A stretch of 64,000 bases of DNA from Neobacillus sp. FSL H8-0543. Lineage in GTDB: Bacteria > Bacillota > Bacilli > Bacillales > Cytobacillaceae. Under the pieces are notes generated by a model. That model did no database searches and had not been told where the DNA came from. It saw only the letters and a program-made list of their open reading frames with translations. The stretch is from positions 5,034,501 to 5,098,500 of the forward strand of contig NZ_CP151943.1 of NCBI RefSeq assembly GCF_038592905.1. The letters are read 5' to 3'. Positions 23,643 to 26,655 of the stretch are shown one piece after another; within the stretch, counting starts at the first letter, position 1, and every line of letters begins with the position of its first letter. The translations under genes were made by a program, and so were the position numbers.

Positions 23643-23775
23643 ATAAAGCTGCTCTGGGATCCTGTCTACATAATCAAAGAAACTAGGTGTACTTGAGGCC
23701 ACGAATCAAATCGTGTGTAAAATACAAACTTATCCCCTATACTAAAGTAGAAAAACGAAATTGGAGGGAAAAATT

Positions 23776-24474
23776 ATGCATATTGAAATGTGGACTGATT
23801 TTGCTTGACCATTCTGCTATATTGGCAAAAGGCGTCTGGAGGACGCCATTAAACAGATTAACCATCCCATTGAAGTAACATATAGATGCTACGAGCTGGA
23901 TCCGACAGCAGAACGCGATATAAAAGAAAATATGTACCAAATGTTAGCCCGAAAATATGGAATGAGTATTGCTCAAGCAAAAGTAAATACGGGGAACGTG
24001 GTACAAATGGCAAAGGAAGTTGGATTAGAATATCAAATGGATACAATGATTCTAACGAACACCTTTGATGCTCACCGTTTGACGATGTTTGCAAAAACAC
24101 AAGGATTAATGAAAGAGATGACCGAACGAATTTTACATGCCTATTTTACTGAATCCAAACACATTGGAGATCATCAAACTTTAACAGAGTTGGCAGCTGA
24201 GGTTGGTTTGAATCGGGAAGCTGTAGAAAAAATGCTTGCAAGTGATGAGATGGCAGATGCTGTTCGTGCTGATGAACAAACAGCTAAACAGTACCGGATT
24301 ACTGGTGTCCCGTTTTTTCTTATTAATAAAAAATACGCCCTTACAGGTGCTCAGCCAACTGAGACATTTGTTCAGGCACTAGAAAAAATCATTTCAGAGG
24401 ATGAAATCACCATTTTAAATAATCAAGATGGTACAGTCTGTGATGATGATGGCTGCGAAATTCCTAATAAATAG
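23776..24474 (+). CDS. DsbA/FrnE-family oxidoreductase with in-frame TGA in the CxxC motif (candidate selenoprotein)
   Basis: From an ATG 7 nt after GGAGGG, the frame reads MHIEMWTDFA, then TGA (23806-23808), then PFCYIGKRRLE and runs open to 24474, 232 residues if TGA is decoded. FrnE-type proteins carry DFVCPFCYIGKRR here, so TGA replaces the first, nucleophilic Cys. The rest matches the family: the HRLTMFAKTQG segment, GVPFFLINKKYALTGAQP near the end with its cis-Pro, and a C-terminal Cys-containing CDDDGC tail. A GC-rich hairpin lies at SECIS distance downstream of TGA. Either the TGA is selenocysteine (UPFC motif) or the gene is a one-base nonsense mutant; without decoding, only a fragment from about 23932 could be made. 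No sel genes are in the window. Confidence 0.75.
23806..23850 (+). promoter_or_regulatory. candidate bacterial SECIS element
   Basis: Downstream of the TGA a perfect 6-bp stem GGCGTC (23831-23836) / GACGCC (23842-23847) encloses the 5-nt loop TGGAG. The loop begins 28 nt after the TGA, within the 16-37 nt spacing reported for bacterial SECIS, and has a G among its first two bases as that consensus requires. Two further A-T pairs follow below a mismatch. The hairpin lies within the coding sequence for KRRLEDAI. Function as SECIS is inferred. Confidence 0.55.
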
Positions 24475-26093: not shown

Positions 26094-26339
26094 GAACGGA
26101 AAGTCTGTTCTTCGGAATGAGGAATAAAAAATTTGTTTTGGAAAGTATTCTAATTAGCCTTTTTGGCAGTAATAAATATAACCAAACCGTGAAAAATGCA
26201 ATTATATCTGAACTAGAACTTAATGACGATAAATGAGTCCTGAATAGTTATAATAAAATAATTTTCAGTCTATTTCATTTACAAACGAAAAAGGGTGTGC
26301 AATAATCTCTAGTAGAAAACAAAAAAATGAATATTAAAC

Positions 26340-26520
26340 AAATAGGTTTCTTACTGTTCCTAATGAATAGTAAGACTAAGAGGGAAGTTGGTGTAAAGTC
26401 CAACACGGTCCCGCCACTGTAAGCGAGTAGGAAGGTTATAAAAAATCCACTGTGTGTGTATTGCATGGGAAGGAATAACCAACCGTTGATTCGTAAGTCA
26501 GGAAACCTGCCTATTATGTT
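26340..26520 (+). ncRNA. cobalamin (AdoCbl) riboswitch
   Basis: The conserved B12-box elements appear in order: GAGGGAAGTTGGTGTAAAGTCC, the CCCGCCACTGTAAGCGAG core at about 26410, a variable peripheral domain, and AGTCAGGAAACCTGCC near 26497. It lies 190 bp upstream of the B12 operon. A terminator hairpin just before btuF is its probable expression platform, so cobalamin should shut off the whole operon. Boundaries are approximate. Confidence 0.95.
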
Positions 26521-26655
26521 GTTTAAGCTTCCTCGAGGAAAGGAATGTTTAAAGTGCAGGTAATCTCTTAATTGTAGGTATTTTATTATTTATATTAAAG
26601 ATTGCAAGTTTATACATACTATCTACTAGACAAGTATGATAACATGCCTTTACTC

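Follow-up and report, generated by a model that had tools for sequence, protein, structure and literature searches.

The gene at positions 23776 to 24474 of a 64,000-nucleotide stretch of the Neobacillus sp. FSL H8-0543 genome (hereafter the window, meaning the whole stretch analyzed) very probably encodes a genuine selenoprotein, a FrnE-type disulfide oxidoreductase of the DsbA family in which UGA codon 11 is predicted by computation to be read as selenocysteine (Sec). An earlier note on this DNA had proposed the gene as a candidate selenoprotein, and this reading is supported by the computed Sec machinery of the source genome, conservation of the TGA across species, and a SECIS stem-loop, together with the existence of Cys counterparts and the predicted fold of the Cys version of the protein.

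Anatomy of the predicted seleno-FrnE gene

The features of the gene are as follows.

23763..23768, + strand: ribosome binding site GGAGGG (sequence)
23776..24474, + strand: predicted seleno-FrnE gene, 232 residues counting TGA as Sec11 (reading frame; PF01323)
23806..23808, + strand: TGA, predicted Sec11, opening the UPFC active site (sequence; opposite the first Cys of Deinococcus radiodurans FrnE)
23812..23830, + strand: possible accessory hairpin (hairpin A) in the stretch from UGA to SECIS (folds, codon counts)
23815..23817, + strand: Cys14 codon TGC (codon counts in Sec and Cys segments)
23821..24474, + strand: 217-residue gene call (P0002) starting at ATT codon 16, without Sec11-Cys14 (database gene model)
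23831..23847, + strand: predicted SECIS stem-loop GGCGUC-UGGAG-GACGCC (folds, codon counts, published model limits)
23836-23838, + strand: Leu21 codon CTG, extending into the SECIS loop (codon counts)
23837..23841, + strand: SECIS apical loop UGGAN (segment alignment)
23887..23889, + strand: Cys38 codon (counts in Sec and Cys proteins)
24439..24456, + strand: C-terminal CX4C, Cys222 and Cys227 (alignment; available text of PMC8945050)
24487..24515, + strand: intrinsic terminator-like hairpin 3' of the gene (sequence)

The gene starts with ATG at 23776 and reads MHIEMWTDFA (ten codons), TGA, and PFCYIGKRRLEDAI..., ending with TAG at 24472-24474. The earlier description of a strong ribosome site, ATG, ten codons, and TGA, followed by PFCYIGKRR in a frame open for 221 codons, was confirmed. 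The product contains the Pfam DSBA domain PF01323 (E 2.3e-44), which together with the FrnE fold predicted for its Cys version assigns it to the FrnE subfamily; the N-terminal CXXC of this subfamily is present as UPFC (UXXC by letter), with Sec as the first Cys, and the C-terminal CX4C of many FrnE members is found as well. Alignment with D. radiodurans FrnE runs along its length (E 1e-50) and places TGA opposite the first Cys of CPWC, which, with the reading of the frame, bears out the claim that the codon stands where a FrnE-type CPFC motif begins with Cys.

An NCBIfam scan returned four matches, each under its cut-off, and no name for seleno-FrnE. The source genome contains a single match to the window protein at E <= 0.001, which is the window gene itself, and among the window TGAs with a UxxC or CxxU motif no other has a similarly long open frame downstream, the runner-up having 101 codons. 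Given the terminator-like hairpin 3' of it, frnE may be transcribed as a single gene; no promoter-like site was found 5' of it. Its product is probably cytosolic. Across the neighborhoods of 62 related loci (up to ~2.5 kb per side), the genes flanking frnE in the window recur in at most two other loci, so that genomic context gives no clue to function.

Selenocysteine machinery of the source genome

The source Neobacillus genome (one contig, 5.30 Mb, 99.8% complete) carries the four genes expected of a selenoprotein-producing bacterium, namely selA (561 bits), selB (339 bits), and selD (405 bits), all exceeding curated cut-offs, and selC in the form of two almost identical tRNA-Sec genes with anticodon TCA, both above the tRNA-Sec cut-off. 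The search for these genes that the earlier note had proposed thus found every one of them. The two tRNA-Sec copies lie about half a megabase apart, and more than one tRNA-Sec gene occurs in six of the 61 genomes of the genus. Loci outside the window relevant to Sec use are listed below.

C1:4291423-4291515 and C1:4786641-4786733, source genome: tRNA-Sec copies (L001, L002)
C1:392160-394181 and C1:2370663-2371415, source genome: two formate-dehydrogenase-like genes with TGA (L185, L188)
L017:664-903: SelW/Rdx-like gene, 79 residues, CMQU, located between selD and selA and divergent from selD

At least four other genes of the source genome have an in-frame TGA, all in families with known selenoproteins: selD itself (L018), which reads KAG-TGA-GCKIGP; a formate dehydrogenase alpha gene (795 bits); a second formate-dehydrogenase-like gene, whose 198 bits fall under the cut-off of that model; and the SelW/Rdx-like CMQU gene beside selD, which is a candidate for a further selenoprotein. 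Taken with the machinery, these four genes support Sec use by the organism independently of frnE. The SelD, FdhA, and SelW-like selenoproteins share the decoding machinery and the genome with seleno-FrnE and have folds and functions other than those of FrnE.

Conservation of the TGA codon

In 178 loci, codon 11 is TGA in 140, TGT in 30, and TGC in 8, with no other codon found; some genes were fetched twice, and the distinct 140-base stretches number 121 with TGA, 28 with TGT, and 8 with TGC. An in-frame UGA is therefore present where homologs have Cys, as expected for a selenoprotein. Comparison with relatives, which the earlier note had suggested, showed that the TGA is conserved and not confined to a single strain, while Cys forms of FrnE coexist with it as other branches of the family. 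A sequencing error was also considered and rejected, as the same codon is found in many genomes.

Within the genus, 59 of the 61 genomes have some FrnE match, and 25 have a homolog of 63-100% identity with TGA at codon 11 (in one case the match spans just residues 1-212); one further genome has a frnE fragment with a TGA. Nearly all genomes of the genus carry selB (59/61) and tRNA-Sec (60/61). G009, which has neither, has solely Cys FrnE among matches of more than 40% identity, and G046 (94% complete, 720 contigs) has TGA-FrnE and tRNA-Sec, with selB not detected. Five of the 25 genomes (G017, G019, G050, G051, G058) additionally encode a Cys FrnE of 48-52% identity, which indicates that a Sec FrnE can have a Cys FrnE beside it. 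At the level of the family (193 genomes), 98 of 99 homologs at E <= 1e-90 have exactly one TGA, its position being verified for those homologs fetched as loci only, and in a named genome collection 62 of 63 loci, found by similarity to the window protein, have TGA at codon 11.

In the order, TGA at codon 11 was found in at least 54 of 397 sampled genomes, belonging to 14 families, the codon being verified in all 54, and their proteins are ~58% or more identical; the match list reaches to about E 6e-70, which makes 54 a lower bound. Five genomes (G128, G084, G248, G258, G297) have one TGA each, but their codon 11 encodes Cys, and the first stop is the end of the gene at residue 225-237. selB was detected in 53 of the 54 order genomes with TGA-FrnE vs. 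126 of the 343 others (Fisher p 1e-19, kinship ignored), the exception being G262, a 96% complete draft in 480 contigs. With selB in 179 of the 397 genomes of the order and in almost the whole genus, the statement in the earlier note that Sec is rare in Bacillales does not stand. In 126 of the 397 genomes selB is present and TGA-FrnE absent among the matches listed; other selenoproteins presumably maintain the Sec trait there. In a wider sample of the phylum (398 genomes drawn), 16 genomes have a match at E <= 1e-40, with TGA in two, both from the family of the source genome, and Cys codons in the rest.

These data bear on the alternative that the window gene is a pseudogene, in which, after a nonsense mutation, the product would be no more than a short start peptide or a remnant of 217 or 180 residues made by re-initiation and devoid of the active site. 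Remnants of this kind are indeed predicted by gene callers (P0002, 217 aa; P0044, 180 aa). However, the identical TGA recurs in at least 54 order genomes of 14 families at the protein identities given above, 90 codons are conserved in amino acid while synonymous codons mostly varied, no second lesion besides the TGA was found in the window copy, and neither TAA nor TAG occurs at codon 11 in any of the 178 loci. Given the conservation of the TGA in particular, we consider a pseudogene very unlikely and retain the selenoprotein reading.

SECIS stem-loop and associated codon signals

The window stem-loop has a stem of 6 bp (7 with U-G), the loop UGGAG, a distance of 28 nt from UGA to the loop, and a folding energy of -14.6 kcal/mol for 47 nt. 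It conforms to the limits for bacterial SECIS elements in a 2026 review, i.e., a stem of 4-16 bp, a loop of 3-9 nt with a G at its first or second position, a distance of 16-37 nt from UGA, and an energy <= -7.5 (PMC13188914). A test in one fixed register used a shorter segment and took in 16 additional loci. Of its 104 distinct Sec segments, 96 satisfy the limits on stem, loop G, and energy, compared with none of its 36 Cys segments; the other 8 Sec segments fall short on one limit.

Pairing and codon usage were counted in 162 loci (L023-L184), 140 of them yielding Sec segments and 22 yielding Cys segments; dropping identical ones left 107 and 21, respectively. The six stem pairs are formed in 96, 104, 107, 105, 107, and 107 of the 107 distinct Sec segments, compared with 8, 0, 18, 3, 9, and 18 of the 21 distinct Cys segments, and the loop is UGGAG, UGGAA, or UGGAU in every Sec segment (107/107). 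Three codons distinguish the two groups: Leu21 is CTG in 107/107 Sec segments vs. 0/21 Cys segments, Cys14 is TGC in 107/107 vs. 1/21, and Gly17 is GGC in 102/107 vs. 2/21. In 71 diverse Sec genes, 90 codons encode a conserved amino acid for which synonymous codons exist; of these, Cys14 TGC and Leu21 CTG were the only invariant ones. The fixed TGC at position 14 and the usual GGC at position 17 suggest, at the level of sequence, that hairpin A (23812-23830) may also matter for the Sec signal.

Stem pairing holds in 97.4% of cells and drops to 19-62% after the 3' side is slid by 1-3 bases (kinship not removed), and the mean fold energy of the 28-nt stretch is -9.6 in Sec genes vs. -3.7 in Cys genes. 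Replacements that preserve pairing were also seen: the pair at offsets 28/38 changes from G-C to A-U, with an Arg-to-His change meeting a silent Asp change, and in L109 (Ammoniphilus) a U-A pair of the stem becomes G-C. On independent (starred) branches, covariation amounts to 2 pairs for each of two base pairs, which is too sparse to decide.

Descent of the Sec form and a probable return to cysteine

The FrnE of L204 (G460, an 88% complete draft) is 81% identical to that of the window, is nested in the Sec group, and has TGT at codon 11. Of the six SECIS stem pairs, three are lost, and codons 14, 17, and 21 read TGT, GGA, and TTG. The simplest reading of this sequence is that Sec reverted to Cys, the RNA signal decayed, and the protein was kept.

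A quick, unrooted likelihood tree was built from 177 proteins thinned by identity to 105 (71 Sec, 34 Cys), several of the Cys rows being long-branched. It requires two state changes for the Sec rows and unites 70 of the 71 with L204 in one group (SH-aLRT 100), which fits one Sec gain and one loss. The remaining Sec row, L109, adjoins this group (SH-aLRT 87, branch not starred) and is closest by identity to a Cys row, L177 (58%). Its placement is unsure, and Ammoniphilus may represent a second, independent origin of Sec.

A broader scenario, which we advance only tentatively and hold to be somewhat less probable than its opposite, is that the Bacillales seleno-FrnE forms a separately arisen and long-kept selenoprotein clade in spore-formers, most of them oxygen-tolerant. 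It would have passed through one Cys-to-Sec change near its base, followed by the acquisition of a third redox Cys (Cys38) and of an mRNA signal made up of two hairpins, would use a selenol-thiol relay unlike that of Cys FrnE, and would have undergone at least one return to Cys erasing the signal.

Predicted structure and proposed redox mechanism

AlphaFold2 modeled the Cys version, using 14 sequences, with a mean pLDDT of 86 and pTM of 0.80, the last 22 residues being of low confidence. The top Foldseek matches of the model are 5co3 and 5xwh (TM 0.89). D. radiodurans FrnE (DR_0659; 5cnw, 5co3) is 42-43% identical to the window protein in the structural match, with TM 0.87-0.89. The two proteins share the C-terminal CX4C, where Cys222 and Cys227 of the window protein correspond to Cys239-Cys244 of D. 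radiodurans FrnE. They differ in the active site, CPWC in D. radiodurans FrnE vs. UPFC in the window protein, and in the presence of Ser in D. radiodurans FrnE opposite Cys38.

Cys38, where the second strand of the predicted structure ends, is associated with the Sec form. When the 178 loci were reduced to 158 distinct proteins (121 Sec and 37 Cys), this residue was found in 99 of the 121 Sec proteins vs. one of the 37 Cys proteins, that one being L204. The C-terminal Cys pair is missing from 19 of the 121 Sec proteins (18 have no tail Cys and one has no CX4C-type pair), which means that the tail is not essential throughout and that these 19 must have another donor route. Sec-FrnE proteins ending before CX4C (L094, L096-L098, L100-L105, L107, L111, L113) come from Aquibacillus, Planomicrobium, Salinibacillus, and a few others.

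Based on the anatomy of the SECIS and on known bacterial Sec decoding, SelB carrying Sec-tRNA-Sec would bind the stem-loop 28 nt past UGA and deliver Sec at codon 11. D. radiodurans FrnE is described in the available text as a disulfide reductase of the cytoplasm, and its C-terminal CX4C as playing a part in regeneration of the active site (PMC8945050). By analogy with this Cys enzyme, Sec11 would attack the disulfide of a partner, and Cys14 would resolve the mixed selenide-sulfide. The active site would then be re-reduced by Cys222/Cys227, possibly aided by Cys38, with electrons supplied by thioredoxin reductase or a similar donor. We give the cycle as proposed, from Sec11 through Cys14 to Cys222/Cys227, an even chance of being correct.

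Database gene models

The best 120 of 7,388 database proteins divide into 100 without the active site, 15 with W at the site, and 5 with C there; those NCBI entries that carry a name are called 'DsbA family oxidoreductase', apart from one 'DsbA family protein'. The same best 120 include 74 proteins of 216-222 residues, 73 of which begin with MGKR or MGKK, directly past the motif, and P0012 and other public relatives start at the same place as the 217-residue call. The 100 of 120 entries listed without the active site imply that gene models of seleno-FrnE need correction. The five proteins of this set with Cys at the site (P0010, P0011, P0013, P0084, P0085) are 70-78% identical to the window protein and are possible further returns to Cys, although the letter may also be U written as C.

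The W entries raise the question of whether UGA is read as Trp or Cys, by suppression or a code change, and not as Sec, since, among the 20 listed database proteins that extend over the site, 15 have W there. We infer that these letters reflect the code chosen by gene callers. Moreover, the other relatives compared have a redox Cys here, tRNA-Sec, SelA, SelB, and SelD are present, and the stem-loop fits the SECIS model while being broken in the Cys-bearing L204. We therefore give readthrough as Trp or Cys next to no credence. Somewhat less remote, yet still quite unlikely, is that UGA serves mainly as a selenium-dependent switch, acting without selenium as a stop or leading to downstream re-initiation, with the short form having its own task. 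Potential starts exist at the start-like ATT of codon 16 and at ATG codon 53 (23932). Such a remnant, however, would be devoid of the active site and of the first strand, which starts at residue 2 in the predicted structure of the Cys version, and the codon 16 start is known from the gene caller alone. Decoding of UGA as Sec is thus our preferred reading.

Relation to known DsbA-like selenoproteins

COG2761 is, we presume, the FrnE COG. According to the portions of the sources available, a 2005 listing from the Sargasso Sea contains DsbA-like selenoproteins with UxxC, assigned to COG2761 (PMC1088965), and so does a listing from the GOS metagenomes (COG2761 / pfam01323) (PMC2398784); four proteins were counted among sequenced genomes (PMC1794560) and, by 2016, 45 proteins in 41 organisms (PMC5029168), and the group also appears in 2022 and 2026 reviews (PMC9312934, PMC13188914). 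As these texts describe them, the Sargasso and GOS proteins share with the window protein the DsbA family, Sec as the first residue of UxxC, and a SECIS after UGA, whereas the proteins of the genome counts share the family label, and some of them may be Bacillales genes (PMC5029168, PMC1794560).

The DsbA-like selenoprotein as such is thus already known from the available texts. The earlier suggestion that a real case would be new for the lineage is weakened by the 2005 listing (PMC1088965) and by the 2006 count of three selenoproteins in three families, given without names, for Firmicutes/Bacillales (PMC1794560), as far as the accessible parts of these sources go. The word FrnE is absent from the available text of PMC9312934, PMC2398784, PMC13188914, PMC1088965, and PMC1914089. 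Judged by title, none of the open-licence papers found to mention both FrnE and selenoproteins deals with bacterial selenoproteins, and open-licence searches found no paper joining Bacillaceae with selB or spore-forming with UGA. As far as the literature searched is concerned, the order-wide clade, its SECIS, the revertant, Cys38, and the gene models without the active site are new, although the clade itself may be listed already.

According to the available text of the 2026 review, selenoproteins are rarely retained by aerobic bacteria (PMC13188914). In contrast, the predictions made here describe one disulfide reductase whose Sec form persists across no fewer than 14 families in an order of Bacillus relatives. 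With its natural Cys counterparts and one revertant, seleno-FrnE offers a system for asking what benefit selenium brings to a disulfide reductase.

Elsewhere in the window

A cobalamin riboswitch (RF00174, 119 bits) was found at window positions 26327-26528, ahead of binding-protein and ABC transporter genes that probably serve vitamin B12 uptake.
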